Origin: Henricia sp. BOLD:AAB3569
Lineage: Eukaryota > Echinodermata > Asteroidea > Spinulosida > Echinasteridae
Assembly: GCA_037783545.1 (NCBI GenBank)
Contig: JBBELK010000364.1
Location: 496,001-560,000 of the forward strand
Length of the DNA stretch: 64,000 nt
Direction of reading: 5' to 3'
The notes beneath the pieces were generated by a model. It saw nothing but the letters and a program-made list of their open reading frames with translations, did not search any database and was not told the origin of the DNA. Of the stretch, positions 4,504-32,544 are shown in pieces (the first letter of the stretch is position 1; each line of letters opens with the position of its first letter). The position numbers and the translations under genes are program-made.

Positions 4504-4947
4504 AACCATAGAGCAAGGTACTGTTCCTTGCTGACTATGGTCTAACTGCTTTACAGTCACTTCGCCCCATTTCCACTTCGCCCCATGTCAGTTCGCCCCA
4601 TACCACATCGCCCCATCGCCCCGTTACCACTTCGCCCCATTGCCACTTCGCCCCGTTACCACTTCACCCCATTGCCACTTCGCCCCACCTATGCTATTTA
4701 GCCGGCAGTCAGTAAACAAAAAAGGAAAAGAGTAGGCCTAATTAACTATACTGCGCCACTGGTTTTATGAATTGATGTGTAAAAAAACACGTCTGTAATT
4801 GATCACGTTGAAATGACGTCACTGTCTACAAATTGCCACGTGCATCATGATTTTGAGCATTTTTTTGTGTCGCGCATCGGTTGCGCCGTATTTCGAACAA
4901 ATTTCGAACAACACGCTAGCGTGCACGTTTAGATAACTGTTCCAGGT

Positions 4948-7722: not shown

Positions 7723-8093
7723 GTTTATTTAGGCGTGACATAATTGAATAAACCATACCACACCATAGGCCACGCGCCAGATGAAGGCCGTTAAAGAAAA
7801 GTTTTCAGTAAAAAATGGGTTTTGTTTGTCTGTTTTAACTTTATAGCAATCATACAATACCTCCCAAAAATAATATCGACGGGGAATTTTTTTAAAAGGC
7901 AATCCTATGCAGTTTGGATGTGGAAGCAAAAAGGTGAATTACGTTTGGAACCAGATAAATTATTTTGCAAAACATCGGTCGATCTATTTCCGGCGATATC
8001 CTTAAAATATATACAGATATTTGAGAACGTGAAATTTCTTAAGTTATGGTAACGAGAAAAATTTGACAGACAATAAAATATCAAAATCTCAAT

Positions 8094-8250
8094 TTCGCAA
8101 GGGTCTTTCTAGTCTTGGCCCAAGACTACTCTAGTCGATATTGGTTTGTGTACGCGTTGGCCATATAGTGCGCCCTCTTGCAGCACTAACGGACCAGTCT
8201 TTGCTCACTAGAGTAGTCTTGGGAACTTCTCCCGGAAGGTTTAACTTTTT
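8094..8250. mobile_element. short inverted-repeat element related to 9290-10030
   Basis: CCCAAGACTACTCTAGT recurs inverted about 105 bp apart. The two halves match, in reverse, the two ends of the longer element at 9290-10030, so this looks like its internally deleted form. Confidence 0.6.
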
Positions 8251-8333
8251 CTTTGTTTTTGCCTAGGCTTTCCTAGGGAACCAATCAGCGAGTGACCCAA
8301 ATACAGCAGAGCGTGGGAATGCAGCGAGCGACC

Positions 8334-8991
8334 TAGACTGGTTCCCGCTCCACATATTACAACGACTGAATATGAGGACCGGCTACTGTCGTGTTTAAAA
8401 TAGCACTTTAAGCATTACGTCATGCATTTATTTTTAGGAGCACATAACCGTTAATTTTCAAAGCGCGCGCGCTGCGCGATATGGCATGAGTGTACAACAA
8501 TTTGACAGGGGTTATTCTATATTTGACCAATACAAACTTAATATATTAACCTTAAAATATTAAATATGCCCATTTTAATCATGTAGGCTAGCATCAAAAA
8601 GAAAATTCTAGAAAATTCAAACCTTGTCTGCATCACCGAGTGAGCTCCATATTGTACATGAGTTTAATCTGCTGTTGCAATCCCGTAACTATAGCCATTC
8701 AAACGGTTGTTTGTTTCTTCCTCCATGCCGTAACTATAGCCATTGCGTAGTTTTAAATCCGTGGCATCACCATAAATACACACGCAGCGGCACGCGTACG
8801 TGCACGCGATGTCAATTCAAATTGTACCCGACGATTAACGGTAACGTCCGGACGACCGGACGTGCATTCGGGTAACTTCGGGAACCTTCGGAAAAAGGAG
8901 GAATTCCTCCTGTTTCAAAATGGCGAAATTGACGGCTGCCGGACCTTAAATTCAGTCTAGTCAAAGAATTTTTGGTCCGGGTACCAGACTA
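8334..8991. mobile_element. non-autonomous DNA transposon with 9-bp target duplication (copy 1)
   Basis: Ends TAGACTGGTTCCCGCTCCA and TGGTCCGGGTACCAGACTA form imperfect inverted repeats. CGAGCGACC directly flanks both sides (8325-8333, 8992-9000). The length is 658 bp, with no ORF of note. Confidence 0.85.
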
Positions 8992-9289
8992 CGAGCGACC
9001 CAAATACAGCGTATACAGTGTAAGGCGGCTTACAAGAATCATCGAACATGACCGTTTTATCGTTGCTAATATTTTCGGTGGCATAAGTTTCTTGGCAAAT
9101 GTTTGCGAATATATTTACAAACATGTTTGCAAAGGCGTATGACATCGCAAAATACATTTGTTAATGAAGATAATTGCGACATTGTAAATATTTGCAAAGA
9201 TATCTGTGATATGCCATGTCCCTTGTACGTGTGCCTTCATAAAACCCTCTGCAGCTATTTACATAAAACGGTACCGCCCCCAATGCTGA

Positions 9290-10030
9290 ACTTCCGGGAG
9301 AAGTTCCCAAGACTACTCTAGTGAGCAAAGACTGATCCGTTAGTGCTGCAACATCCTGAGATCTCAGGGAATGTCTACTCTGCAAAGCGACGTAACAATA
9401 CCCTGAGGAAATACACGCAAATCTGTGGAGCGAGCCGGCTGTTGTCTTGAGCCAACTCACGCCCGAGTCATTTTGATGTAATTTAATCAATTCGGTCATG
9501 TTATGCTGAAAAGAAACAATTTCTATACTTTCCAGAAATTGTATTGGGTTCTGTTCCATATGACTGTCGAGTCCCATTCCTACCAAACTTTCAAACGACG
9601 AACCTTATTTACTCCGCAGTTTTTTAAATTAATAACAGGGATGCATGCTGACGAATGTAATGGAACGGATTCCCCAGTATGCTTTAAATAGCAGCCAATC
9701 GTCGACTCGGACAACGGCCAGCATTACCGAGTACATGTATCACATGCATGTACGGTGTTTACAATCTGCGCGCGTTACATTTGAATGCCTGCAATCGTGC
9801 TGCATGATGCACGACAGGCGTCCTGATTGGTCCAGCAGAGGCGACAAGATTTCTGTCGCTAGTCCCACCGCCAAATGGGGCCTTTTTCAACAGGGCCACT
9901 GTACGCAGGAGTTAGGGAGTGCGTTAAAGGGGCACTGTTGCAAGAGGATGGTGCTGCAAGAGGGCGCACTATATGGCCAACGCGTACACAAACCAATATC
10001 GACTAGAGTAGTCTTGGGCCAAGACTAGTA
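9290..10030. mobile_element. inverted-repeat DNA element (about 0.7 kb)
   Basis: Ends CCCAAGACTACTCTAGTGAG and CGACTAGAGTAGTCTTGGG are inverted. The subterminal sequences match 8119-8240. There is no transposase. Confidence 0.6.
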
Positions 10031-10661
10031 CCTCGCTTGCCAAGAACCTTGCTGCATCGACTGGGTCTGAGCTGTATTACATACAGGCCTAGGGCTGTTC
10101 AACCAATGAGAGACAAGATATCTTTTGACCTGTATCTTTTGACCTCTTAATGAGCCGTTTTGAACAATCATCTCGCGTGTTGTTTATCTCGCGACATCGT
10201 AGCCGCAATTACCACAATTTGTGTGGGGGAGATCTTTTATGTATGTATATCATTTTATCTTGCACGCAGTATAAATGTTCGTAACTGAAGGAATACTTAC
10301 TATATTTCGCTAAAAGCTAAACGCAGAATCTCTGAATAAAGATAGGCCTATTAAAAAGCGCCTTTACAATGACTGTTTATTTAAACATTGGACCCCACCC
10401 CCTAGTAAAAGTGGACGCTACCACTAAACGGAGCGAGGCGCGTGATTGGCTCTTGCTGTTGGCAACAGCGTCCTAGCTATGATGCATTTTGAATGTCGCG
10501 CTATACGTGCTACGTGCACATCGGGCCTATCGGCACTGCATGCGATGACCGAGAAACATGCGCTGCGCGTGATTGGTCAGTTGCGATCCCTGTCACTGGC
10601 TAATCAATATTCATATATATTCCTCAATACAGCTCATACCCAGTCGATGCAGCAAGGTTCT

Positions 10662-11352
10662 TAGACTGGTTCCCGCTCCACATATTACAACGACTGAATT
10701 ATGAGGACCGGCTATGTCGTGTTTAAAATAGCACTTTAAGCATTACGTCATGCATTTATTTTTAGGAGCACATAACCGTTAATTTTCAAAGCGCGCGCGC
10801 TGCGCGATATGGCATGAGTGTACAACAATTTGACAGGGGTTATTCTATATTTGACCAATACAAATTTTAATCATGTAGGCTAGCATCAAAAAGAAAATTC
10901 TAGAAAATTCAAACCTTGTCTGCATCACCGAGTGAGCTCCATATTGTACATGAGTTTTAATCTGCTGTTGCAATCCCGTAACTTAACTATAGCCATTCAA
11001 ACGGTTGTTTGTTTCTTCCTCCATGCCGTAACTATAGCCATTGCATAGTTTTAAATCCCTGGCATCACCATAAATACACACGCAGCGGCACGCGTACGTG
11101 CACGCGATGCATAAAAGGAAGCACTTTTGTGTGCGCTGCGGACTGACTGGATGTCAATTCAAATTCTCGAAACAATGACGAATTGTACCCGACGATTAAC
11201 GGTAACGTCCGGACGACCGGACGTGCATTCGGGTAACTTCGGGAACCTTCGGAAAAAGGAGAAATTCCTCCTGTTTCAAAATGGCGAAATTGACGGCTGC
11301 CGGACCTTAAATTCAGTCTAGTCAAAGAATTTTTGGTCCGGGTACCAGACTA
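10662..11352. mobile_element. non-autonomous DNA transposon with 9-bp target duplication (copy 2)
   Basis: Close relative of 8334-8991 with the same ends, but independently inserted: CAAGGTTCT flanks both sides (10653-10661, 11353-11361). It interrupts an inverted-repeat arm whose partner is intact at 10029-10080. Confidence 0.85.
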
Positions 11353-12189
11353 CAAGGTTCTTGGCAAGCGAGGTACGAGTGCAGGAAAGACCCTTGCGAA
11401 AGGAAGATGATTATAAACCAAAAGAAAGACATCAAACTCATCGGAATAAATTTCAGCTTTGACAAATGTACCACTTTAAAAAAAAAACATGAAAATCCAT
11501 ATGCATTTTCCTGGTCTTGGCGGGGTGTTTCAAATATTCGTTCTCAGTTGATCGGGTACTATATGTGGCTTGCGTCATATGTGGCGCACATACGGCGTGT
11601 GCGCGAGATCCATAAAAAATGCATCGCGTTGGAACACGCACACGGAGTACACAGCGCACATGCATTTTGGACCGCGTAGATGCGAACCAAAAATAAGTAA
11701 ATCGTTTGCAAACGATCTAAATAATTTCATCTTTACGGATTATTTTCTGGTAAAATTATACCATTTTGAGCGAAAACCTTTCATTGGATAGTTGCTATTA
11801 ATTCAATCTTTACTTTCAGAACTTTTCCTCTGTAAACTCGTCGATTACTTTTTGGGTCATTGCAAATGATCCACTGCGGGCCTTTAACGGCGAGTCACCC
11901 TTGCGCAGGCCCCATAACCTTTATTTCTGACCTTCATTCGTCGCGTAGCCTATGGTGTGGTACGGTTTATTCAGTGACGTAGGATAAGTGTATTTCTCTT
12001 TACGTCTCTGAATAAACAAAGGAGAAACGGTTATCATCGCGCACGTGTCTCTCATCACGTGATACACATCACGTGATTAATAGCTGGGTGCTACCTAACT
12101 ACAGTCTGGTACCCGGACCACAAAGTTTTGACTAGACTTAATTATTCAGTCGTTGTATGTGGAATATGTGGAGCAGTATGGCGTGTGAA

Positions 12190-12470
12190 CCGTTGCAATA
12201 TTTGATAATGCACAAATATATGTGCGATGTTAAATATACATGTGCGATGTTTGATATATATGTGCGATGTTAAATATATATGTGCGATGTTTTTTCATAT
12301 GTATGCGATGTTGAAAATATATGTGCAATAATTTGACATATATATATGCAATGTTTTTTCATATGTGTGCGATGTTAAAAATATATGTGCAATAATTTGA
12401 CATATATATGCAATGTTAAAAATATATGTGCGATATTTCGACATATATGTGGGATATTTCAATGTGTGGG
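12190..12470. repeat. ATATATGTGCGATG satellite
   Basis: Irregular repeats of ATATATGTGCGATGTT and ATATATGCAATG words. Inverted-orientation copies occur at 14935-15021, 15353-15560, 30194-30391 and 30724-30775. Confidence 0.9.
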
Positions 12471-12837
12471 GTCGCGGTGTTTGTGATATGTGGGTATGAT
12501 CTTTCATAGATTGGTTCCCGATCCCTATAGATGGGTTCGCTTATTGCGAAAGTGTGGAATATGTGGACGGGAACCGGTCTATTCTCCTGTGTGGAATATG
12601 TGGACGGGAACCAGTCTAGATATTTTAATGTACATGCTAGACTGGTTCCCGGTCCACATATTCAACATACAACGACTGAATAATTCAGTCTATAGTCAAA
12701 ACATTTTTGTTGTTGTTGTATATTTTATGGCATCTTCGGCAACTAAGGCCCTTTATGCCATCAACTATACGGTTTTAGCTTTATTAACTATACTATATTA
12801 TCAACTTGAGATGACGAAGAAGGAGTTGCAGTTTTAG

Positions 12838-12993
12838 AAGTGGGAGGAAAACCCCCAGAGAAATGCCCCAGGAGAAAACCCACTCGGTCAAGTAGGGACT
12901 GCAAACCCAATCCACATACACGCCCCGGATTCGAACCCGGGACCCCAGAGGTGAAAGGCGAGGAAAGAACCCGTACGCCAACTCGACCGCCCC
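12838..12993 (-). repeat. tRNA-derived SINE-like repeat
   Basis: On the minus strand GGCGGTCGAGTTGGCGTACG (box A-like) is followed by GGGTTCGAATCC (box B), then a body with repeated TGGGTTTTCTCC-type words. It sits inside the composite element at 12.1-13.0 kb, so it inserted there or travelled with it. Confidence 0.6.
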
Positions 12994-13183
12994 CAAAAAC
13001 ATTTTTGGTCCGAGTACCAGACTAGGTAGCACCCAGCTATGAATCACGTGGTATCACGTGATGAGAAACACGTGCGCGATGATAACCGTTTCTCCTTTGT
13101 TTATTCAGAGACGTAAAGAGAAAAATGGGTTTTGTTTGTGTATTTTAACTTAGCAATGAAAATAGCGTCCAAAAATAATATCT

Positions 13184-13242
13184 GCTCAAAAATGTGATCT
13201 GGACACGCTCCTTTAAAGGAGCGCCAGATCACATTTTTGAGC
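13184..13242. repeat. 59-bp hairpin
   Basis: GCTCAAAAATGTGATCTGG pairs with its complement around CGCTCCTTTAAAGGAGCG. Confidence 0.8.
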
Positions 13243-13249
13243 CACCCAT

Positions 13250-13560
13250 TTTTCCCATGGTAATTGAGATTTTGATATCTTATTGTCTGTCAAATTTGTT
13301 TCGTTACTATTAAGAAATTTCACGTTCTCAATCTGTATATATTTTAAGGATATCGCCGGAAATAGACCGATGTTTTGCAAAATAATTTATCTAGCTGGTT
13401 CCATAGAACAGTGCAGTAATTCACCTTTTTGCTCTCACATCCAAACTGGGGTTTGCATTAAAAAAAATTCCCCGTCGATATTATTTTTGGGAGGTATTGT
13501 ACGTATGATTGCTAAGTTCAAACAGACAAACAAAACCCTTTTAAACTGAAAACGCTCCTT
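13250..13560. repeat. dispersed repeat, inverted copy of 7780-8095
   Basis: Shared words in reverse orientation include TATCGCCGGAAATAGA, TTCCCCGTCGATATTATTTT and GGGAGGTATTGTA. Confidence 0.75.
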
Positions 13561-13711
13561 TAACGGCGTGTTTCTCATCACGTTATACACATCACGTGAT
13601 TAATAGCTGGGTGTACGCACATATATTGAAAGATCATGCCCACATGTCACGTCTCCTGTGTGGAATATGTGGACGGGAACCAGTCTAGGACACCGCACAC
13701 ATATTAAAGGC

Positions 13712-13774
13712 TAGACTGGTTCCCGTTCCCTACGAAGTATCCAGACGTAATATATTGGGACGGAAACCAGTCTA
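13712..13774. mobile_element. 63-bp mini-element with 9-bp target duplication
   Basis: Starts TAGACTGGTTCCCGTTCCC and ends GGGACGGAAACCAGTCTA, so it is little more than two inverted ends. ATTAAAGGC flanks both sides (13703-13711, 13775-13783). Confidence 0.85.
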
Positions 13775-13807
13775 ATTAAAGGCGACCCCAACTATGTATG
13801 TACATAT

Positions 13808-14895
13808 TGTTATTTTTACGGCTTCCGGAAATGCTCGAAAGCTAGATGGAAAGTTAGGCACAATTTTACACACATATGCCGCGCTTTTTCAATGATTTTG
13901 TACCATCGTTAAAGGGAAAAATTCCTCATTTTTTCCCTTTTAATCAGTGAGAACAAAGATTTGGTCAGGGGAAAACCTCAGCCCAATTACATTTTTTAAA
14001 GGATAGATCAAAAAATAGGCACAAATTCTCCACGGTGTATGTTACACGATCAGAAACATTTTGTCTTTATTGGAAACCATGATATACCATTTTTGCACGG
14101 GTAATTGCGGGGTTGTCTTTTAACAGAATTTCTAAAACGCCAGATGAACGAACAAAAACGCAAAACGCAGAAATCACAACAACGAAGACAATTATCTCTA
14201 TTTTTGATGGGTGATAATCTTTATTTAATTCCTTCTTGCTCTAAAACTCCCATGTTCTATTACAAAAAGTCAAATTCACACGTTTTTCTTCTTAAGACGA
14301 CAAATGTTCTTAGATTGTAAGGAGATTATCTTAATTATCAGAAAATCATACCAGAAACAATGCTTTTTACAATATTTCTATGTTGTAATATAGAAACTGG
14401 GATTTAAAAATTACCCCTCGCGAATTCACCCCTCGCAAATCATATCCAACTGTACAATGAATAGCGAACTGGGTTTATAAAAACTGTGTGCAAGGGGCAC
14501 CGATTGGCAACCCTCGCGAATCATAAATTTAATTGGGTTGAGGTTTATCCTGACCAAATCTTTCGGGGCGCTGTAAGGGGCCCTGATTGGCACCCCTCGC
14601 GAATCATAGCCCACTGTACAATGGATAGCGAACTGGGTTTATAAAAACTGTGTGCAAGGGGCACCGATTGGCAACCCTCGCGAATCATAAATTTAATTGG
14701 GTTGAGGTTTATCCTGACCAAATCTTTCGGGGCGCTTATAAAATAAACTTGAGGATATTCTTTACAGATTAGAAGAAAACAATTGTGCAATTTTTCCTTT
14801 TTACGATGGTACAAAATCATTTGAAAAGCGCAGCATCTATATGCCTAACTTTTCATCTAGCTTTCGATCATTTCCGGAAGCCGTGAAAATAGCAG
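13808..14895. mobile_element. 1.1-kb inverted-repeat DNA element with internal 164-bp duplication
   Basis: Arms of about 125 bp (13808-13940, 14770-14895) start ACGGCTTCCGGAA and contain AAAGCTAGATG and GATTTTGTACCATCG. The interior (14413-14738) holds two copies of a 164-bp unit with CCCTCGCGAATCATA words. Confidence 0.75.
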
Positions 14896-15021
14896 CCCGA
14901 AATTCGTGCTAGGTTCCGGCTGGTGAAATATCGCACATATATTTTTAACATCGCATACATATGAAAAAACATTGCATATATATGTCAAATTATTGCACAT
15001 ATATTTTTAACATCGCATACA

Positions 15022-15352
15022 AACTGCCTTTCCCGTATTAGGGCGACCGGTTATGGGTAAAAAAGGCGTATTAGGACGACCGACCGCATTAGGGCGACCG
15101 ATAGCCGGTCGTCCTAACGCCAAGTGCTTCAAAAACCATCTTTATTAGGTCAAAAACCATTTTTATTAGGTTTCTCACCATTTTTATTAGGTTTGTAACC
15201 ATTTTCGTCTAGGTTGAAAGACATTTTTATGAGAACTTTAAGTCGACAAAATGGGTGTCAACGGCAGAGTTTCTTGCCGACAAATTTGCCGTTTTAGTGG
15301 TTCCCCAGAGCACTCTTCCCAAAACGGTCGTCCTAATACGGGAAAAGTAGTT
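15022..15352. mobile_element. 331-bp MITE in the ATATATG satellite (copy 1)
   Basis: Ends TTTCCCGTATTAGGGCGACC and GGTCGTCCTAATACGGGAAA are inverted. Internal CCATTTTTATTAGGT units repeat several times. It has a near-identical partner at 30392-30723. Confidence 0.8.
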
Positions 15353-15613
15353 ATTTAACATATGAAAAAACATTGCATATATATGTCAAATTATTGCACA
15401 TATATTTTCAACATCGCATATATATGAAAAAACATTGCATATATATGTCAAATTATTGCACATATATTTTCAACATCGCATACATATGAAAAAACATCGC
15501 ACATATATATCAAACATCGCACATATATGTCAAACATCGCACATATATTTGTGCATTATCGAATAGTGCAACGTTCCACATGCCATAGAGCGGGATGGTC
15601 TAGGTGCTACCCA

Positions 15614-15673
15614 CTATTTGCACCACTCCTAAACGTTAGAGGGCGACGGCAACTATCAGTCAGAGATTTTAAC
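15614..15673. repeat. 60-bp perfect direct repeat, left copy
   Basis: Begins CTATTTGCACCACTCC and ends AGATTTTAAC. It is identical to 25575-25634. Confidence 0.95.
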
Positions 15674-18600
15674 TGGAACGCGGAGGACGTCTCTCTGTAG
15701 GTCTCCGGGAATTTGGAACAGCAGCCACCGGGAAATCCAAAGGGCGTAACCGATAAGTTTTAGTATAGTAATGGTGGTGGTGTTTTTAAAAAAGACAATT
15801 TCTGGATAATATTAGTGAGATATTTTGGAAATTGTGTGAGGTTTTATTGAATTTTCGGTGCCGATATCGGTTTTGTACAACGTTGGTGAGGGTTGCTTTT
15901 ACCGTAGCACCAAACTACGGTCTCTGCCCTTTCGTTTTATTTCCCGGTATTGATTACGCTACGGGAAAATGTCGGTTAATCGTGTGGTTTTCCATGCGGC
16001 TTTGGGTATTATTATGCACGTTATTGGTTTGAAAATTGCATGCAATTCGTGCAGGTCTGTTGGGAATGCACCCCCCCCCCCCCTTTGTTCTTCGCGTTGT
16101 TTTCTTGCATTCCGCTCTACAAAATTTGCATACCAATGGGGTGCACAATTGCGGTGCATTCGAAATCGTGGCACGTAGCGCATGGCTTTGACGAACTCGG
16201 CACTACACGGCAAGTGAAAGAATCGTCAATGGTGGTGAGTACGGCAAAAATGAGGAGTTTGCCCTGTCAAGACTATTTTTGTAAAGGTGTCCCTTTCAGT
16301 GCTGAAACCCCTGTTCCGCACAAATGTTGCCTTGTTATGGGGTTTTCTCTTTTCTGCCTAATGGGAAAATTAGTGTTGGCATTGAAGTAAAATCTTACCA
16401 TGTTGCAGTTATATTTGCAGTTGTTTTTTAGTTTGTTTGTATCTCGGGAAGAATTTTTCATTTGACCGCGGCATGTTTTAACATGCGGTCATAACAAGGC
16501 AGACTCGAGGCGGTCACGTGTAAAATTATTCCCCTGTTTCATCCGCCGATTTTATTTCTAGACACCAATTAATGATACAAGTAATTGGGGAAAGAATTGA
16601 GAAGTTGACCATGGCCTCGGGCCCTGTGAACAGACATTTGGGACAGGCTGAAATGTCTAGGTGTTTTATCCAAAATCAAATGTTCCCTCTCGAACATTGA
16701 CCTTTCTTTCAATCCTTCGCTTGCAAAAAAAAAAAAAAAATGCTTGATGAATCATTTTAAAGAAATGTCTGAGCAACTTCTCAAACTCTTACTGTGAGTT
16801 TGCTCAATTAAATGCTCGTCCATACTCGGCTCGTCGCATGGTTACATTTGACTGAGACTTCCCTTGCCTCTCAAAGGTTTGGTTTTCGCCATATTAACTG
16901 GAGGCGGTCATTCGTTACGCATCAAATGTTCCTCTTCTCAAAATTCAGTTTTAAAAGGGATTTGCGAAATGGCCAAAGACCTCGTTAAATGTTTCAAACT
17001 GAAAAATCACGGTATTTGCCCTAACTAGGTATGGACATTTCACGGAAAGTGCCGTTAATATATATATTCTGCAGCAGAGTCTGTCAGAACAATTTTCATC
17101 GCGTTGTGAGATTACATGTAGTTGGAAGGATTTCCTTTGAAAAAAAAAAGGCCTATATATGGCGATTTTCCTAAGTTTTCGGTTGTTTTACCTTTCGTAG
17201 ATAAGGTTATGTTAACGCAGATGTATTGGGCCCGTTATTGGAGTACAAGTGAGTTTAAGGAGGTGGCTAATGGGTGTCCAATAGTTAATTCAATTTTAGT
17301 AGACGTGTGCAATCGTGAGTGGTCCTATGCGATGTAGGTTAAAACAGAGCATACATGAAATGAGTAGCCCTATTTTAGTTGAAGTATAGTATCAAGCCGT
17401 AGACCGTACATACGTAACCCCGACAACATACCGTAAGGGGTAATTAGTGAGTACGATGGGGACAGTTTGTGAAATGACCGTCAACACTGGAATGGTGTAG
17501 ACATTTTGCGGTTTTCCTGTAAATGCATTTACACGCAACCGTTAATTGCGGCAGAAGGGTGGCAACTTTCGGGCATTTATTTACATAGCAGGATTAGTGT
17601 CGTATTTTGGGCGAAATAGGCCTAAATAGTTTGAGCCGATTATGTAAGTAGTTTCAGCCGAAGCAGTAATTTGAGGCAATTTGATGTTGTATGATTTCAT
17701 GCAAGTTTTCTACTTTACCGATACAGATTCCCATATTCGGAGTCTCGCCCTACCCATGACACTGGATTCTACGTCCATCACCCTGAATGAAGAGACAAGA
17801 TAGAGGGCTTCTTCTCGAGCGGTGACACAGGGTGACAATTAGGCGTCAAAGTGTGGCAGGTCCAAAACATACTGGGTGCTTACTCGGCCTTGGTGTCGAA
17901 AAGAAAATACAAAGTGTTTTGTGTGGGTGTGTTGAGTTATTCCACGGTGGTTTTTTGCGCAACGTACCTTAATAGCGCAGGTTCCTTAGCAGGAGTATGT
18001 CCCAAGTCCCCGTGGTCATGCCTTTTGGTTTAGTTTGGGTATTTGGTACCAAGAAAAGGCCCCGAAATACGGTTAATTCATATAAATGTGTTTTAGACAA
18101 TATATTGAGCCCCATTGATTTTAAATGCCAATAAAAGTGACCTACCTGGTTATCGAATTATTGTGTTTTGATTTTCAACGGAGAATACCTTGGGATTTGT
18201 ATTTAAAAAAAAAAAAAACATACAAAAACACACACATTTAAACTTACAGGATAATTACCGTGCGGTACATTTGATATGCATTTTGATATCATCGCAAAAT
18301 GTTCAGCCCGCAAGGAAGCATGTTTCAGATAAGTCTGGAAGTACTGTCGAGGACGGGGGTCTCGGTTTTCTTTTTAGGGGTGAAATTTGCAAAGTGGCGC
18401 ATGACAGTTGGTGTCAGCCGCCAGGGAGAGAGATCTGCTACACTAACAGTAGTGGTGTTTTAAGGTTGAATATCAGGCCGTGTTCGTATTCGCGCGTCAA
18501 TCGTGGAGGACGGCGATAAGTTAGCGTTTCAGCTCGTCAACCGCCCCTATGGCCATGCATTACCAGAGCGTGTTTTCACATTCTAAGGTGTCTAGTAGCC

Positions 18601-20734
18601 ATGTAACATGTTAGCGCGGCAATATTCATAATTCGTTTGCATCATGGCTAGGAACGTTGAGCTGGTCACGGTGATCGGCGCACCGCGCTCGTTTAGTGGT
18701 AGCATACATTTTGTTTTAACCAGGGATCTGTTTTGAAAAACAGTCGCAGCATTTTCATATTGAATATCCTTAGTCGGATGAGCTGCGGTTGATTTTAGCG
18801 AAATGTAGTGGTCTTCTTCAGTCGCGAACACTTGTACTGCGTATATAAGTGTTCTCCCATAGGAATTGTGGGAGTTTTCAGCTGCGATTTTAAATAAATC
18901 TTTTGATAAATTTCGGACCAACGGAGAGGTTAGTTGTATTGTATGTGTGTCCCATTTATAAATTGAGTTATACTGGTAGGTTTACTGCTTGAGGCAATCT
19001 ATTCGCAGGGGCAATTTCATGAAAATGTGACGAGGGTTGGTGAGACCCCGTATCTCAGATATCCGCGTCCGGTTCTGGTGTCGGGCTGCGTAGCCAGTGG
19101 TGTACATGTAAGTAACCAACAGGACGTCGGCGAGGCTAATTGTTTCCGGTCCGTTCCCGGCTGCCTCTGCCTGTCACCGTTTGTGAACCGACCAGTCTGG
19201 TTACCGACGTGATATAAAGTCACTGACTCGCAATACTCCGGTGAAAACTTGAGGTTGCAGGTTCGAGAACCGTCTGGGGGCCTGTGCCTTAGAACAGGGC
19301 GCTTTAGCGCGTGTGCTCCATCCTTCGGATGGGATGCGCAGCTGTTGGTCTTGTGTGTTAAGAAACGCACTTTGGTGATCCCAGAGCATTATTTGGCGAA
19401 TTCAAGTGGCGGACGCTTGTATGGCACATGTCTGCACTGGGATGCTCCTGGTGCTGTTGCCATTAGCGTTGTCGATGCCATCAGAAGATCACCGGTACCA
19501 TTTCGCTTCAGCCAGGGCCCAGTTTCATTGAGCCGTTTGAGCGCTGGCTGAGGGCGTGTGCTTGCTGTGGCAGAAAGTTTAGGCCTTTTTGCAACCGCGG
19601 CGTGCTTGAGTGTGCGCGCGCTTGGGAACCGTCATTGTTGCGTCACTAGCTTGGTTAAGGCACGTTTTCAGTTTCTTACCATTAACGATGTCTATGAGAT
19701 GTCCTGATGCTCGGTTAACGGAACGTGGGCGGTTGAACGGCTCTATAAATTTGGCCCCAAGTGGCCGCCTCGCTTGGGTGCCGATCCTGTCGGCGGTTGG
19801 ATTGTGGCATTTCCCCCTGGCAGCTCCCCCTATGTCGCCGGGGTTAGCGAGGTAGTTGGGATTGGGCGTCTTGCCCACGGACGAAAGTGGGGCTTTGACC
19901 CACATAGCCCTTCGATCACGAGCACGGTTGTGTGTCTGCGGGACGCCTCGTGCTCCCAACGTCTCTCGTGAAGAGCTGGATAGGTAAGACTTGAGGCTGT
20001 GCATGGTGGTATCAACGCGTGTATGGGCTTACGGTAGCACCATGTGAAACTCTTTTGACTCGTGATGATGCAGGGCTATAAGTACTGGTTGAGGTCATTC
20101 AGTGTACAATGTGTGCACTGAAGCGGAATGGCTTGGATTGATGAGGCGTGGTTGTGCTTAGGATCATAATCTTGTGGTTGGCTGTGGTGTGCTTATTGCC
20201 TTTTCCTCGTAGGTTTGCTAAGGCTTGCGAGCGAATGCAATGGGCACTTTGGATAAATCCTTGGTTTCAGTGCCAAAGTTTTATATGACTGGTCTCTATT
20301 TGAGGTCCGCCAATGCGCGGAATCTACGCTTTGTGAGAGAATGTCCATTTACCGGACGGGTTTACCTCTGTTTTGATACCGAAGGTCTTTATTCAAGGGA
20401 ATTTTACCTTTTCGCCTGGTGTTAACGGACATGGTGCATGCGCCAATCTCAAGTCTTTTGTTGCGTTGATAGTTTTAGCGCGGATTTCAAATAGGGGAAG
20501 AAACCTTAAGATTCCCAAATTTGAAAAGCAACAGATGGTTTCACATGTCGTATACACATAGCGCACCACGGTGGCATCTCATGGCCTAGGTCTAAGGCCT
20601 TAAGAATTTGTCCCTTTTGGCATTGTGCGGTACACCTATTCCCGCCCTTTTGTAATAATTCGGGCTGGTTACCGGAGATTTCGCAAGGGGATATCTCGTT
20701 ACCAGGGCCAGTGAGTAAGAGCCGCAGGTTTGGC
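15674..20734. other. no gene seen; left part of the block between the 60-bp repeats
   Basis: Mixed-composition sequence with short ORFs only, a C run near 16068-16082, a 27-bp hairpin GACCGC...GCGGTC at 16464-16490, and the SINE at 19.2 kb. No domain is recognisable in any frame I read. Confidence 0.4.
19205..19400 (+). repeat. tRNA-derived SINE
   Basis: Box B-like GGTTCGAGAACC is followed by a body with TTCGGATGGGATGCGCAG, TTGGTCTTGTGTG and AGAGCATTATT. This is the same body plan as the fragment at 2.1 kb but with its tRNA-like head retained. Confidence 0.6.
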
Positions 20735-21254
20735 CGTGTCGAGGATAGAGACCCAGCTTTTGCCATGTGAGGGGAAGAGCCCAAGGTTTTGCCGTGTGTC
20801 TGAGGGGAAAAGCCCCAGGTTTATAGACAGATAGATGGATTGATTAAACATTATTTTCCCACCCGGGAAAATCCAGTCGGCCTGTACCACAGATTTGAAA
20901 TATTACACTATGTATTTGTAATACACACTATCATAAAGGAAAATTACTCAAATTGCTTATTAGCCGCGTGAGAGAAAAATCCCTAGGCTACGGTTGGCCG
21001 TGTGAGGGGGAAAAAGCCCCATGTTTGGCCGTGTGAGGGGAAAAAGCCCCATGTTTGGCCGTGTGAGGGAAAAGCCCAAGGCTATGGTTGGCCGTGTGAG
21101 GGAAAAGGCCCCATTGTTGGCCGTGTGAGGGGAAAAAGCCCCATGTTTGGCCGTGTGAGGGGAAAAAGCCCAAGGCTATGGTCGGCCGTGTGAGGGGAAA
21201 AAGCCCCATTGTTGGCCGTGTGATGGGAAAAAGCCCCATGTTTGGCTGTGTGAT
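20735..21254. repeat. 30-bp minisatellite (GGCCGTGTGAGGGGAAAAAG), left part
   Basis: Units of about 30-40 bp contain GGGGAAAAAGCCCC, interrupted by about 135 bp of other sequence at 20826-20964. It continues at 23200-23610 after an inserted element. Confidence 0.9.
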
Positions 21255-23199
21255 TAGTCTAGGCCCTAGACGGTCATTATGTGTTGGATACCCGACTGCC
21301 GCAAGAGGGCGTAATCACGCAATAGACTCGTTCGTTGTCCTATCACCATATCGTTTTGTCAAAATGACCGTCTAGGGAAACTCGTAAAATCTCCCCCCCG
21401 AAACAGGGGGGAAATTTGTGCGCATGCGTTAGTTTTGTATGCAGATACGGGTAGATTTTCCTTAACGCACGCGCAGTTAAGAGCAAATAGCCTGGTACAT
21501 GCACCGTACGTTCGGCGCTTATCGTCTTGATTTGAAAATTTATTGTTGTTTTGCAGGCGCCGTGGTTGATTTAACCGGTAATGGTACGCGTTGTTGATTT
21601 CGCCGGGTGGCTCGCGCGGTTAATTCCGGGTAGGCGAAGACTCTTTGCAACGGACGGGTGGCGAAGCAACATAACCTGGCCGACGTTGGCGGTTAGGCTT
21701 CGGTCGGTCTGAAAAATACCCCGGGAAAAAATACTTAGGGAAAAATCCATCTAGACCGCACGAGTTTTGAATTTTGCATAGAGTATAAAGCCCGACTAAA
21801 AACAAAAAGGATTTTCAAAAAAATAAAAAATTATATATCGGCCCGATAAGTGAGAGCCCCAAAATAAAATTTTAAAATTTCTATCTTCAGTTAAAACCAT
21901 TTTCACACAACAGACAAGTTGCAACAGCTATCAAAGATACTTTTGTTGCAAAAATTCATCAAGCAGTTCCTGTTTTATGCTTGTTAAAATGTGCCAAATT
22001 TACGTGCGGAATCGTCAATAAAAAAAATAGACAGCGACTTCATAAATTGTGATGTGATTTTGGTGATATTTTGGGGCGGAAAATCTCACCACTGCACAGG
22101 TGGATTTGCGTGATATTTGGCACAAAGTACAAAAAAACCAGCCCCAATAGGCCTGTACCAAAAATAAATCAGAGGCTGGCAGATTAAATGACAGAAACTA
22201 AAGTGCAATTTCACGCAGCAGTCTATCAAGCTTGCAAACTTCGGTTACGGATTTGACCAAGTTGAAGTCATAGTGTCGCGACTGCACGACTGATGATGTC
22301 ACGGATTTCAAAGCCCCTAGCATAGGCCTAAGGATTTATGTTATGACAGTGCTATTGCTGGTTTTAAGTTGACATTTTGAAAACCCACTGGGAGGGAAGG
22401 GGAATTTATGTCACGGAAAACTTTTTCTCTCTTGTCGATCCTATGTTTTTGTGCCCGCACGCGGCGAGCCGCCCGGTGTGCAGTATTTGCTTTTTGCTAG
22501 TTCCTTTCTTCCAGATTTCGTTAAGCATGGTGTGAGCGATTTTCTCTGTTATGGGATGGTAAAATGAAATGTTTTGTGTATCTGTCATATATTCCAGATT
22601 ATTTCCGAAGATGTTGTTGTAGTAGATTGAATGGCACGTATCGGCATATTTTCCGAAGATTTCTGAGCCATGGAGATTTAGGCCAATAAACTGTTCAACA
22701 CACGATCAAGCTATACGGCAACAAACAGTGTTCTAATTTCACCCGGTTTTTTTTTTCATTCCAAAAAAATGTACAGCTTGAAAGATTATTTTTCCGAACC
22801 GGCGGGTTTTAAACTGGCGAATAGGTTCAACTGTGTCCTCGATTATCTGTGGAACAGTACCTATCATTTGCAATGTCCTATACAATTGTATTTCCAACAA
22901 AATCTCTAAATTGCCGTGTCGAAATCGTAAGGTTTGCCGAGGGCATTACGATTTTTCCAGCCCGCGGCTTCCCCGTGCAGTCATGCCACGATGTGAGGAC
23001 ACAGGGGACTAGACATCGTGCATACATGCATAGTAAGCAGGCGACAGTGCGCTCTGCATAATATTATGCATAACAGGTGCGCGCGCACGGCGCTGTCACT
23101 ACGAGATTCCCTAGACGTTGTTATTGACTGTCTCGCGGCGATCGGTTTTCGGGACGGACGTTTAAAACGAAACAATAACAACGTCTAGGGCCTAGACTA
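21255..23199. mobile_element. 1.95-kb DNA transposon with 9-bp target duplication
   Basis: Both ends read TAGTCTAGGCCCTAGACG inward. CTGTGTGAT flanks both sides (21246-21254, 23200-23208) and is part of the minisatellite unit, so the empty site is known. No transposase ORF is seen. Confidence 0.9.
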
Positions 23200-23610
23200 C
23201 TGTGTGATGGAAAAAGCCCCATGTTTGGCCGTGTGAGGGGAAAAAGCCTCATGTTTGGCCGTGTGAGGGGAAAAGCCCAAGGGGTTGGCCGTGTGAGGGA
23301 AAAAGCCCCATGTTTGGCCGTGTGAGGGGAAAAAGCCCCATTTTGGCCGTGTGAGGGAAAAGCCCAAGGCTATGGTTGGCCATGTGAGGGAAAAAGCCCC
23401 ATGTTTGGCCGTGTGAGGGGGAAAAAGCCCCATTTTGGCCGTGTGAGGAAAAAAGCCCAAGGCTATGGTTGGCCGTGTGAGGGGAAAAGCCCCATGTTTG
23501 GCCGTGTGAGGGGAAAAGCCCAAGGCTATGGTTGGCCGTGTGAGGGAAAAGGCCCCATGTTTGGCCGTGTGAGGGGAAAAACCACATTTTGGCCAGTGAG
23601 AGTAAGACCT
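23200..23610. repeat. 30-bp minisatellite, right part
   Basis: The same units as 20735-21254, resumed after the inserted element. Confidence 0.9.
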
Positions 23611-25574
23611 CCATGTTTAACTCGTGTTTGACGCGAGAGGAAGATCCCCGAATGGGACAAGCTTACCGGTTCATACGACTGGAGTAAATCCCCGAGTGTC
23701 CATATATAGGGTCAAGCAGTTGCTGCCCTTCCTGGAGTACAGGTCAGCCCATCCCAAGTCTTTCCTTCAACGGTGTTTACAGTCGCCCCAAATATTCACC
23801 GGTGCACTTTTTACACCTTGGTGAGGTGAATTATTTTCCAGGGACACGATGCGACGGGATGACAGTGACCAGATCGATGGGAAGAGCCCCGTATGTCGTA
23901 ACATGACAAATGCAGTCACCAGGTGGTGATATTAGAGAAGTTGAAGAGCCTCAAAACTGAAGTATAAGGTACAGGCTCCAGATTGTCGCAAAGAGGGAAA
24001 AGCCCAAAGTGCACTTTAAGTGGTACATCGGTTCAGCATAACAAACATAGGGATATACACCCAGTAATTTTGAGAACACTTAGCTAAACTTAGGTAACTC
24101 CGTCACCAAGTGATAGCGGGTATAATATAAAAGTGTGAGCTAAATTTGCATTGCGAATAACCTGCGTTTTGTAGAATCCCAGCGCAACGCGTGCAATTAC
24201 CCTGGGTTTTGACTAACGGTCTCGCAGGCGAAACCGATCGGTGGTGTTGATGTCGGCAATGAAGGGCTCCGCATTGGAATTAAATATACAAATACCCCCA
24301 GATTGCATACAAAGCGGGAACCCCAATATAGGGGGCAGGCGCAAGAGGAAAGGCGCTGCCACTAAGCAGTGCCCAGGCGAAATACCAAGTAGCCGCGAGG
24401 GTTCGATGTGGAAGTAGATCCCTGAATTAAGGGTTCAGAGAATTGGCACGGCATGAAAGGGAAAACCCTGCAATATGTGGCTTGACCATGCAGTTATCGA
24501 GTGGTAACATTAGTTGGGTTGGGGCTTGCAAGTACAAGCACCGCAGTCAAGCAGAATCGAGCCTCGTTCCCTCTCGCGTCGCTCATTATGTTCGTGGCGA
24601 TTGGAGATATAATGGTAAAAGATGGGTGAAGTATGATTTTAAAAAAAACAAACAAAAAAAAACAAAAAAAACATTCGCTAGCAAGAACATAACGGAGTTG
24701 CTTTGCATGTCATTTGCGGCATTTGTAGCAAATTTTGTTTGAGTCAAGAGCTAGCGTCACTGTTTAACATGTAATGTTCTCTTTTGTTTTAAACTATAGG
24801 TTCCCTCTACGCCTGAACAGCGCCCTCTTCTGTTAGCAGAATGTTCAAACAGAAGAGTCATTTTCTTTCTCAAGAAAATATTGAGCCTGCCCTTTGCGAC
24901 AATTTAATCTTTTAGTTCATATTCAGAACCAAGTGGGTTTTAGTTTCCTTTAACAAAACCTTGGTCCAAGAAATGATGGATTCACGAGGCATAAGCCTTC
25001 GGTTACGGTTCTCTCGGGGGTATATAAAACTATCGTAGTGAATTCGTCGCTCCTGTCTTTGTTGTCCAGACTATAATTCTGCACCATCTTGTAACGACCC
25101 TCGACAACTCGCGGTTCGCATAGCAATTTCAATGTCCCGGGGGATTGGGGTAGTACTGGCGTTGCAGATGCAGGTCAACCTGACCTATACCAGGCCAACT
25201 GAGAGCATCTTGTGCGTTTTAATCCACCTCAGATGTTTATATTCAATGTCTGTGGAAGATTCGAGTTCTTTGATTACACGAGTAGTGGTGTTTGTAGCTC
25301 GAAATAAACCATTCATTGATAATAAAATGTTTTGTATTGAAATTCCAATAAGTTCCAAGTGTCATCTCAGTAAAGCATGGTCGAAAATAACATGTGCTTT
25401 TGTACATGTATAACGTAGCGGATTTGTAAGCAGAACTGCTGGCATACGGCATGATGCGTATCCTCTCATCATTCCCAGTCAATCACGGTTAATCCGTTCG
25501 TTTAGCGGCAAATCCCTCGAAGGACTATTCATAGAACATGTTTTATTTGTCACACACCCCCTTTCCGCATCACC
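23611..25574. other. no gene seen; right part of the block between the 60-bp repeats
   Basis: Contains decayed relatives of the GGGAAAAGCCC minisatellite words, an A-rich run at 24640-24670 and a TATATAAAA motif at 25020. No supported coding region. Confidence 0.4.
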
Positions 25575-25634
25575 CTATTTGCACCACTCCTAAACGTTAG
25601 AGGGCGACGGCAACTATCAGTCAGAGATTTTAAC
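25575..25634. repeat. 60-bp perfect direct repeat, right copy
   Basis: Identical to 15614-15673, in the same orientation, 9,961 bp away. Confidence 0.95.
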
Positions 25635-25731
25635 CGAGAAGAAGGTGTAAGGAGCGTAAGTATGGTGCAGGTACGTGTAAGAAAAACAAAGGAGGTAAGT
25701 TGGACTCCCTTTTCTCCCCGCCCTCCCGCCC

Positions 25732-27086
25732 GCGCATTTTTTTTTTACACCACTGCGAGGGGTAATCCTTCGTTACAGTGCACGTACAAAGACTACGAAA
25801 AAGTCGCGCATGCGTAATAAGCCAATGATTGCAAACCGCGTGTCACGTCTGTCGACCGACGATGATACCGGTGACTTTTCACCACAGAAAAAAAATGAGG
25901 GGTACGTAGCCGATCTTGGCTTCGAGATCTTGTATGCAAAACATAGTTTAATGATACTACACGTAGGCTGAACAATATGTGTTCCCTGTGAAAGTCTTCT
26001 ATATTTTCCCACCCTCAACGGGGTTTTTCCATATCAAATATGCACCTACTAACTGACATGACTGATGCTTTAATTTACTGGGTAATTTTAAAGAATTTTA
26101 CAATTCTCAACATAAGAATTCCTGGAGTTTAATTTAGAAGAAGTGATTGAAAAAGTGTCTGGAGGGAACGTTTGAAAAGTGCTTCAAGGGGCAAATTATA
26201 GTGTTTAAAAAAAAAGTAATAAACTAAGTGTTTCGAAAGAACGACCGAAACGCGTGTTTCGAAAGAACGATCGAAACGTCGTTTCGAAAGAACGATCGAA
26301 ACGTCGTTTCGAAAGAACGATCGAAACGTCGTTTCGAAAGAACGATCGAAACGCGTGTCGAAAGAACGATCAAAACGTCGTTTCGAAAGAACCATCGAAA
26401 CGTTTAGAAATAATTAACAATCAAAACGTTTCGAAAGAACGATCAAAACGTCGTTAACGTCGTTTCGAAAGAACGATCGAAATGTTTCGAAAGAATTAAC
26501 GATAGAAACGTTTCGAAAGAACGATCAAAACATCGTTTCGAAAGAGCGATCGAAACGTCGTTTCGAAAGAGCGATAAAAACATTGTTTCGAAAGAACGAT
26601 CGAAACGTCGTTTCGAAAGAACGAGCGAAACGTCGTTTCGAAAGATTTATCGAAACAATCGAAACGTGTTTCAAGGGAAAGAAGAAAAAAACGTTTTGGA
26701 AACGGAGTTACCTTAAATATACATGGAGGAAGGAAATGCATTAGGCCTATGGGCTTATACAAAGTTTGGGGACTGTTGTCGATCGATGGTGTTTTTTATT
26801 TACAAAAATATTTCACCATTCATTCAACATAAAAAACATCCACTGATCCTTTGGCTGATATTTTTTTAATATGTATGCAGTTCTTCTTTTTTTCCCTTTC
26901 TAATCAATCATGAAATGTATCTTATTATAATACATGTACAGTACGTACGTACACAATCTACATGCACATGTACAGCGCATTGTATAGCAAATGTATACGT
27001 ACGGGGAACTTTAGTCTCTTCACCAGCAGTGAAATGGTGCGTTTTCTGCCGAATTCCCCTCGCAGTGGTGTAAAAAAAAAATGCGC
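25732..27086. mobile_element. 1.36-kb DNA transposon with 9-bp target duplication
   Basis: Inverted ends start GCGCATTTTTTTTTTACACC and continue ACTGCGAGGGG. CTCCCGCCC flanks both sides (25723-25731, 27087-27095). It contains a 25-bp minisatellite and no transposase. Confidence 0.85.
26225..26660. repeat. 25-bp minisatellite (GTTTCGAAAGAACGATCGAA)
   Basis: About 17 units containing the self-complementary words TTTCGAAA and CGATCG. Open frames across it are repeat artefacts. Confidence 0.9.
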
Positions 27087-27372
27087 CTCCCGCCCCTTCA
27101 TTTTGCACTCATTACGTACTCGAGCTCCAGTCTCTACTCGCAAAGCTTTTCTTATCCAGTCCTAAATCATAGGGACTGGAGCCCGAGACGTGAATGGAGT
27201 AATGCAGATAGTATACAATTCCGTTTACGCACATACATTGAAAGATCTACTACTATACTGGTTCCCGTCCACATATTCCACACTTTCGCAATAACCGAAC
27301 CAATCTATAGGGATCGGGAACCAATCTATGAAAGATCATGCCCACATATCACGAACACCGCGACCCCACACA

Positions 27373-30193
27373 TAGTCTTGATGCAAGACCGAATTTACTG
27401 TTAGAGTTCGCGATCTCCACATTGCTCATTTTAGCCGCCAGAGGGCGTACCTACACTTACAACGTGAACTCGAAAACTCGCGGTCTTGATTACTCCGTAA
27501 GAAAAAAGTTCGATAACCTTTATGGAAGCACATGAATAATTAAACAGCAAGGTCAAAAATTATGGGCGCCTGCGTAGAAGAGAAAGCGATGCCTCCATAA
27601 ATAGGTCATGTGGGATGGTAACTTGCGTGTGCAGTGATTCACCGTGCCGCGCGAAAATGATATCGGGCCGTTTTCGTGCAGTGACCGTGGTGCATGGCCT
27701 GCCGAGAAGCGGCATTTCTCGGTACGAGTGCGCGCCCAGCCCAGCCCGGTGACTTCCTGTCCCCGGCCGGGGGTGCCTGTCCGTGTAGATTAAGACCCAA
27801 TGCCATGGCCAAAACATTGAACAATGTTGGACAACAGTGGGAAAAAATCTAAAAATCATGAAAATTTCTCTCTCTTAGTTTTTACACCATGGTTTTTACA
27901 ACCACACTAACATTTTACATGGTTTTATAACAATGGAAATCCATGCTGCATATGGGGGCCTAAAATCAGACATGTCATAATTTTATTTCTCATTTTTATC
28001 ATCAAACTTGTTCTAACATGCATTGTTTATTTTTCATTTAATACAAAATAAAGACGTTTATAGTGGTCGGATATGGCATTCAACCTAAAAATTCAAATTA
28101 TTTCTGCACTTGAAGCGAAATATTGAACGAATAAATCAGACAATGTTGACGAACATTTCTTTGGACAATGTTGGACAGAAGTGGGTAAAATTTAAAAATC
28201 ATGAAAATTTCTCTATTATTTTTCACACCATGGTTTTTACAACCAAACTAACATTTTACGTGGTTTTATAACAATGGAAATCCAGGCTGGGGGCCTAAAA
28301 TTAGACATGTCATAATTTTATTTCTCATTTTTATCATCAAACTTGTTCTAACATGCATTGTTTATTTTTCATTTACAGAATCATGATAAAGACGTTTATA
28401 GTGGTCGGATATGGAATTCAACCTACAAATTCAAATTATTTCTGCACTTGAAGTGAAATATTGAACTAATGAATCAGACAATGTTGACGAACATTTCTTT
28501 GGACAATGTTAGACAGAAGTGGGAAAAATTTGATGAAAATTTCTGTATTATTTTTCACACCATGGTTTTTACAACCAAACTAACATTTTACGTGGTTTTA
28601 TAACAATGGAAATCCAGGCTGGGGGCCTAAAATTAGACATGTCATAATTTTATTTCTCATTTTTATCATCAAACTTGTTCTAACATGCATTGTTTATTTT
28701 TCATTTAATATAAAATAAAGACGTTTATAGTGGTCGGATATAGAATTCAACCTAAAAATTCAAATTATTTCTGCACTTGAATTTAAATATTGAACTAATG
28801 AATCAGACAATGTTGACGAACATTTTTTTTTTAGTTAACCAAACTGTGCAAATTTCCTTCAAGGGCTTCTGTCCTATCTACAAAGTAGTTTGCTGTTGTT
28901 CCCTGGAATTCGTAAAAACAGCTTCATATCCACAAAATTAATGGGCCTTCTCAAAGCATTCTCCTCAAAGCACTGAAAAGGGTGAAATTTTAAACATTTA
29001 GTAAACTAATAAACATCAAATTTAAATTTGTTCCATTAAACGTTATTCCAGTATATTTTCGGAGGCTTATGCTAGCAGGTTGCTCTAATTAATTTTCTGC
29101 AATTCTGCTTGCTGTAAAAACAAAAACATGCACGAAGAATCGGAAAAAAAGTATTGTTTTAAATAGGCCGTAAAAGGTCGATCCTTGGGTCACAACAATT
29201 TGCCTTATTTTTTGTTGGCCTAAATGAAAATCAAATGGGTCATATTTGACTTTAGAAAATGTACAATTACTTTTGTAAAACCATGTGGCTTTGAGAGACT
29301 CCTTTCAACATTAAACTTACAAAAATTTAATAAGGGCATTTTGAAATTTTTTAAAATCTGCCCAACAATTTATAATACTTCAAACATTGTGTACAAAGCA
29401 TGTGATAGTGAGTGAAATTAGTAGTTTTTAAGAAAGTGGGTGGTTCTTCACTCAGATTAATTCATATCTGAACTAACTGATGCTTGCAAGTCATTTTAGG
29501 GAAAAATAGTAGTGGATAACTTCTCTGAAATCGTTTAGCACTTTTTTTTTTACCGAAGCCAATAATATGAAAAGCATGCCATAGTATAGAGGAGAAGTAA
29601 ACAATCACAGTCGTTTTCTTCCTCCATGCGTAAGCGATGAAAAAAAATCGTGACCAAGCAGAAAATGCCCTAAGAAAATCTCTAATGCCAGTCTTTGATA
29701 ACACCCGACCGTAGACCCGTTCACGGGTCTAACCCGACCGTACGAGCAACGCAGGCCGGCAAGCGGCAAGGCCCGGACTCGACGCGACGGTACAGGTAAG
29801 CCACTGAGTGCAACGCGCAAGATAGCTTTGTCCGTCCGTGGACAACGTGTTTGCCTCATATCATGTTTGCCTGCTGACTGCTGATCGATCGATCGATCAG
29901 CGACTGGAAAAGCAGCGACATTTGTATGCACTGTCCTGTCCAGTGTGTTGTGTACTCTGGGTACCAGACAGACCAGAGCTGTTGTAAATTATGGAAATTA
30001 GATGACGTCACGCATTTCAACGTGTCACACAAAGGTATGCCAGGAATTCGCTCGGTATTTTGCGAGCGATTTATACGGAATATGAAAGACTGTCTTTTCG
30101 ACTGTATTTCAGGTGCGCCCTCTGGCGGCCAATGGTGAATAGTCTATGTACATCGTGTATTGCGCGCAAAAAGGCAGTCTTTCCGATAGACTA
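27373..30193. mobile_element. 2.8-kb DNA transposon with 9-bp target duplication
   Basis: Ends TAGTCTTGATGCAAGACCG and, inverted, TAGTCTATCGGAAAGACTG agree at 14 of 19 positions. CCCCACACA flanks both sides (27364-27372, 30194-30202). The uninterrupted target sequence is visible in the related satellite element near 12455-12480. An inner inverted pair (GCCGCCAGAGGGCG) lies near both ends. No transposase. Confidence 0.85.
27817..28830. repeat. 330-340-bp tandem repeat, three units
   Basis: ACCATGGTTTTTACAACCA recurs at 27886, 28228 and 28559. It lies inside the 2.8-kb element. Confidence 0.9.
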
Positions 30194-30391
30194 CCCCACA
30201 CATTGAAATATCCCACATTTATGTCGAAATATCGCACATATATTTTTAACATTGCATATATATCAAATTATTGCACACATATTTTTAACATCGCATACAT
30301 ATGAAAAAACATTGAATATATATGTCAAATTATTGCATATATATTTCAACATCGCATACATATGAAAAAACATCGCACATATATATTTAAC
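30194..30391. repeat. ATATATG satellite
   Basis: CACATATATTTTTAACATCG and ATATGAAAAAACATTG words, as at 14.9 and 15.4 kb. Confidence 0.85.
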
Positions 30392-32403: not shown

Positions 32404-32544
32404 AGCAGGCCTCCCACTGTGCCATTTTTGCCACGATTCCTCTACGAATTGGTACGATTATCGGAGACTGCCTATAGACTCTACACACAATCTTACCCAA
32501 TCGTAGCTAATTCGTGGCAAAAATCGCACAGTGGGAGGCCTGCT
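32404..32544. mobile_element. 141-bp MITE with TAA target duplication (Harbinger-like)
   Basis: Inverted ends start AGCAGGCCTCCCACTGTG and run about 33 bp. TAA flanks both sides. A 3-bp TWA target is typical of PIF/Harbinger. Confidence 0.8.

Follow-up and report, generated by a model that had tools for sequence, protein, structure and literature searches.

AcademH is the helicase-encoding lineage of the Academ superfamily (Kojima 2020), is described from animals and fungi, and has target duplications of 9 or 10 bp (PMC10045372). Mutator-like elements (MULEs) are described with duplications of 8-11 bp, those of the Rehavkus type with 9 bp (PMC6446971), and Merlin elements with 8- or 9-bp duplications and ends that start with GG (PMC8101967). 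The stretch analysed here, 64,000 nucleotides of the sea star Henricia sp. BOLD:AAB3569 (contig JBBELK010000364.1, positions 496,001 to 560,000; hereafter the window), contained six insertions flanked by exact 9-bp target duplications. Our analysis indicated, with moderate confidence, that the five TAG-ended insertions form one end-type group of non-autonomous cut-and-paste transposons whose helper is most likely of the AcademH type. The sixth insertion, with GCGC ends, is a different system with a C-S-G target core. The six insertions, the coordinates and duplications of which were all exactly as the original prediction had given them, are listed below; none is assigned to a strand.

8334 to 8991: TAG-ended non-autonomous element of 658 bp, family "TAGACTGGTTCCCG", duplication CGAGCGACC at 8325-8333 and 8992-9000
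10662 to 11352: TAG-ended element of 691 bp, second window copy of the 8334 family, duplication CAAGGTTCT
13712 to 13774: miniature TAG-ended element of 63 bp, duplication ATTAAAGGC
21255 to 23199: TAG-ended non-autonomous element of 1,945 bp within a 29-30 bp tandem array, both ends TAGTCTAGGCCCTAGACG, duplication CTGTGTGAT
25732 to 27086: GCGCATTTT-ended non-autonomous element of 1,355 bp, a separate system, with 31-bp ends and inner 25-bp repeats, duplication CTCCCGCCC
27373 to 30193: TAG-ended non-autonomous element of 2,821 bp, ends TAGTCTTGATGCAAGACC and TAGTCTATCGGAAAGACTG, three inner 332-bp repeats, duplication CCCCACACA

The 9-bp length stood apart from the background of the window. 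When every TAG(A/T)CT...AG(A/T)CTA pair 60-12,000 bp apart was examined (26 starts and 32 ends), the flanking duplication was exactly 9 bp in five pairs and 0-4 bp in all others, and no pair had a duplication of 5-8 bp or of more than 9 bp. A blind scan of the window, in search of inverted termini bordered by duplications of 6-12 bp, returned 27 rows, three of them at 9 bp (13712, 21255, and 25732) and 24 at 6, 8, or 11 bp, most of which were taken as tandem arrays and fold-backs. Five block-shuffled control sequences gave one 6-bp row in total and none at 9 bp. The scan missed the insertions at 8334, 10662, and 27373, each of which has two differing ends. Inspection by eye placed the duplicated 9-mer of the 21255 element in unit variants on both sides, and it was absent from most units of the tandem array. 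Inverted repeats with palindromic borders of 6-8 bp, perhaps fold-back structures, surround the first TAG insertions at 8158-9979 and 7971-13374. By eye, the segment 12050-13060 is an inverted duplication carrying the flank GGTGCTACC and its complement, together with 8334-type end fragments, on both arms, and several broken TAG ends lie nearby.

The duplication length was then read across the 740.7-Mb assembly (2,104 contigs). First-look candidates numbered 2,695 for the 8334 family, 1,827 for the 21255 family, and 744 for the 27373 family, and the best-matching loci were fetched (8, 12, and 12, out of 55, 78, and 102 match rows); seven more pairs with the 21255 end, picked from the pattern list by length, brought that family to 19 loci. 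Contig C476 is a co-linear copy of the window, so that matches there were not independent and each twin was counted with its window copy as one. In the 8334 family, six of the eight loci had exactly 9 bp, one had 10 bp, and one had eight of nine letters equal. Fifteen of the 19 loci of the 21255 family had 9 bp, two pairs had no duplication, and two loci had no recognisable pair. Eleven of the 12 loci of the 27373 family had 9 bp, and the twelfth (L029), first read as having none, proved to have 9 bp as well, next to a right end that had shifted. After the twins had been merged and the window copies at 10662 and 13712 added, 38 distinct TAG insertions were available. In 32 of them the duplication was exactly 9 bp and in one it was 10 bp; one copy had a mismatch, two had no duplication, and in two no pair was recognised. 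The original prediction had proposed a constant 9-bp target, to be refuted by variable lengths among genome-wide copies; such lengths were absent beyond the 10-bp copy and the mismatched one. The target 9-mers of 31 TAG insertions contained 48% G+C (window 41%), and their outer positions slightly favoured G or C (41/62, p about 8e-5 against the window composition). At L020, L026, and L027, TAG elements were nested inside other TAG elements, each with its own 9-bp duplication intact, which is a possible sign of insertion preference.

The ends of the window TAG elements were TAGACTGGTTCCCGCTCC and TAGTCTGGTACCCGGACC (8334 and 10662), TAGACTGGTTCCCGTTC and TAGACTGGTTTCCGTCC (13712), and those listed above for 21255 and 27373. 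They would follow a frame TAG(T/A)CT-N7, to which AGAC is added in the most exact form, and the 7-bp core varies by family. The exact form TAGTCT-N7-AGAC occurred at 4,904 + 4,849 = 9,753 places in the genome, and the reversed-pattern control at 753 + 1,064 = 1,817; these counts are inflated by palindromic sites read on both strands (16 of 100 listed rows were 8 sites given twice). Among the 100 places listed, all of which lie on C1 and C2, 45 distinct cores were found, and the core of the 8334 family, GGTTCCC, accounted for four places. The self-complementarity of the 45 core types was 1.38 of 3 pairs, compared with 0.92 expected, and none of 5,000 column shuffles reached it; after the removal of a two-strand twin, the values for 44 types were 1.34 and 0.90, again with 0/5,000. 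These sequences suggested a dyad in the TAG end with its centre ten bases from the terminus. At C1:2425935-2452825, the end TAGTCTCACCTCAAGAC recurs mostly every ~4.3 kb on one strand, a spacing that may reflect a tandem array whose unit derives from a TAG-ended element.

No long open frame was found in the window elements, which had been predicted to lack a transposase. Of 53 open reading frames (ORFs) of at least 55 amino acids (aa) in four of them (8334, 21255, 25732, and 27373), nine were compared with Pfam and gave no domain at E 1, in agreement with that prediction; one other window ORF had a sub-threshold match (E 0.24). The long copies of the 21255 family were considered as autonomous elements and rejected, since they held nested inserts or deletions and no long open frame. 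The 5.7-kb copy was the 2-kb element with an inserted fold-back and had no open frame over 164 aa, and no open frame of more than 150 aa was found in four other copies (2.7, 2.3, 1.2, and 0.5 kb) and two miniatures. The length of their open frames and their likeness to the 2-kb element were the criteria for this judgement.

Longer TAG-ended elements were found with the end TAGTCTTGGTGCAAGAC, which occurred at 262 + 245 = 507 places in the genome (control 0). The first 100 places listed contained 34 neighbouring inverted pairs, of which 12 were 0.13-0.35 kb and 17 were 1.2-2.7 kb long. The five longest were C71:621992-628648, C71:710742-717427, and C2:203810-210388, each of 6.6-6.7 kb, and C71:748878-759955 and C121:995469-1006986, of 11.1-11.5 kb. 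The pairs were defined by end positions, and the five long elements had been listed before the helicase search, for which a helicase was picked because AcademH encodes one. When the genome was searched for protein domains, the matches numbered 19 for MULE (PF10551), 20 for Merlin (PF12762), 5 for PF20700, 62 for DUF6589, and 50 for DEAD helicases. One of the 50 DEAD matches, C71:622366-622779 (profile positions 2-133, one stop), sat 374 bp inside the TAG-ended element C71:621992-628648, and its footprint was exactly repeated in three others (C685:58843-59256, C1691:105904-106317, and C1078:57080-57493). By chance, 0.003 DEAD matches would be expected in the five long elements, or about 0.009 for four families together. 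The helicase match inside a long TAG-ended element points to AcademH. None of the 19 PF10551 and 20 Merlin matches lay inside the five elements, and the PF20700 matches lay outside them, on C871 and C921.

DEAD-type helicases were also found beside DUF6589 genes. A DEAD match was present within 12 kb (4-11 kb away) at 10 of 43 DUF6589 loci, all ten convergent, with 0.07 pairs expected; the same test found no DEAD-type pairing within 12 kb for MULE and Merlin. The paired helicases covered profile positions 2 or 3 to 132-163, with one internal stop in six of ten. The ten loci may include allelic contigs of a single locus, since C175/C256, C109/C131, and C1720/C1852 were alike in position and score; perhaps seven pairs are independent. 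The most likely helper would carry two genes, one for a DEAD/SF2 helicase close to one end and, toward the other, a convergent DUF6589 gene as the probable transposase. The enzyme would recognise the TAG end and cut the two target strands 9 bp apart (rarely 10), and repair of the resulting gaps would produce the duplication. We infer that TAG-ended elements contain both the helicase and the DUF6589 gene, that DUF6589 acts as the transposase and is of the Academ superfamily, and that the window families are among its substrates. The dependence of these families on such a helper is drawn from the common end frame and stagger.

The TAG group resembles AcademH as described in its duplications of 9 bp (once 10), which lie within the AcademH range; the DEAD-type helicase match inside one TAG-ended element and the many gene-less relatives would also fit. 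It differs in that no genes were found in the window members. Several further observations weigh against an AcademH-type helper. The DEAD match was present in just one of the five long elements, and none of the 62 DUF6589 matches lay inside them; only 49 of 248 candidates were scored in the DEAD search, so that the absence of more matches means little. The helicases on C71, C685, C1691, and C1078 had no DUF6589 match within 12 kb, and no DEAD-DUF6589 pair was observed between TAG ends. When DUF6589 matches were set against two end types, which have 557 and 507 places, no flanking pair emerged from the first 100 places given for each. DUF6589 is taken as an Academ-type transposase domain, and no paper linking "DUF6589" with "transposon" was found in the literature searched. 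The helicase-bearing element on C71 has a core unlike those of the window families, and TAGTCT-N7-AGAC was fitted exactly by four of the ten window TAG ends, the remainder being variants. In addition, the dyad is only suggestive because, when the set was reduced to 20 core types that differ by three letters or more, there was only a weak excess (1.05 compared with 0.79) and 333 of 5,000 shuffles reached it.

A broader proposal, which we regard as tentative and rather doubtful, is that TAGTCT-N7-AGAC ends define a large helicase-assisted lineage in which near-dyad half-sites would flank an interchangeable 7-bp core that sets family specificity. One two-gene helper type would then have given rise to thousands of core-swapped gene-less satellites in one eukaryote genome; we know of no description of such swapped-core behaviour for Academ. 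If an AcademH-type helper is correct, the helpers, ends, and target rules of one less studied eukaryotic transposon lineage would become accessible, some thousands of repeats in this genome could be classified, and TAGTCT-N7-AGAC with a 9-bp duplication would serve as a short signature for finding the lineage elsewhere.

The alternative that survived best, and that we still consider unlikely, is that the TAG elements are Mutator-like, of the MULE, Phantom, or Rehavkus type, with a transposase, divergent or split by introns, that PF10551 and PF20700 missed. The TAG duplications fall within the described MULE range and equal the Rehavkus length (PMC6446971), gene-less copies are many, and MULE genes are present in the genome (19 PF10551 and 5 PF20700 matches, from searches in which all 56 and 5 candidates were scored). 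Among the loci read or mapped, however, no MULE gene lay within TAG ends. The 19 MULE loci of 3.2-3.3 kb, six of them extended to 9 kb and two traced further out, contained no TAG pair flanked by a 9-bp duplication, even with one mismatch tolerated, and none appeared in what was read of a PF20700 tandem unit. Together with the lack of PF10551 matches inside the five long elements, one of which carries a helicase, these results did not support the Mutator-type helper that had been proposed at first. A TAGTCT at a MULE alignment border was considered as an element end and rejected, since it adjoins a 172-bp difference between two copies. Two MULE-domain stretches on different contigs (L054 3843-5948 and L055 3988-6088) matched each other at 97.7% across 2.1 kb but lacked a clear pair of ends. 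At C871:237800-249085, a Mutator-type PF20700 gene is present in tandem copies with a unit of about 4.24 kb.

Slightly less probable again is a transposase of an undescribed superfamily, with the C71 helicase as a passenger or a chance neighbour. In its favour, the five long TAG-ended elements yielded no transposase domain, and the TAGTCT-N7-AGAC ends match, to our knowledge, no described superfamily. Against it, about 0.003 DEAD matches were expected in the five elements (about 0.009 over four families), and helicases of similar footprint recur beside DUF6589 genes.

A Merlin-like origin, with an IS1595-type transposase, appeared very improbable. The 9-bp duplications would fit the 8 or 9 bp of Merlin (PMC8101967), and the genome contained 20 PF12762 matches, ten of them within open frames over 340 aa. 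The ends, however, start with TAG and not with the GG of Merlin (PMC8101967), no TAG pair was present in the one Merlin locus read (1/20, 3.1 kb), and none of the 20 matches lay inside the five long elements. One Merlin transposase (L067, 383-aa open frame) is flanked by repeats whose GCGGGCCTCCCACTGTGCGATTTT-like ends resemble those near position 32413 of the window.

All six insertions had been proposed to form one group, and membership of the GCGC-ended element at 25732-27086 was not supported. Exactly 9 bp flanked nine of ten further copies of this family, taken from 356 candidates, and one copy had no duplication. In the target 9-mers of these nine copies and the window copy, position 4 was C and position 6 was G in 10/10, and the G+C content was 81%; the TAG targets had no comparable central motif. 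The GCGC ends were also unlike the TAG ends. Because ends and target motifs differ, the common 9-bp stagger does not unite the two, and the GCGC-ended insertion would owe its mobility to another enzyme, one that targets GC-rich sites centred on C-S-G. A single helper for all six families, GCGC included, which would account for the identical 9-bp stagger, is largely refuted by the dissimilar ends and by targets that are C-S-G in 10/10 copies and 81% G+C, compared with 48% and no such core for TAG, and is the least credible of the explanations. A common 9-bp duplication alone thus does not define one family, and two systems with different targets lie side by side here. Within the GCGC family, the listed 31-bp end rows were 100% identical, with small changes in the first 16 bp in three of the ten copies read; the interiors of most copies were 80-90% alike, one copy besides the twin reached 99%, and the window element contained ~17 copies of its 25-bp repeat.

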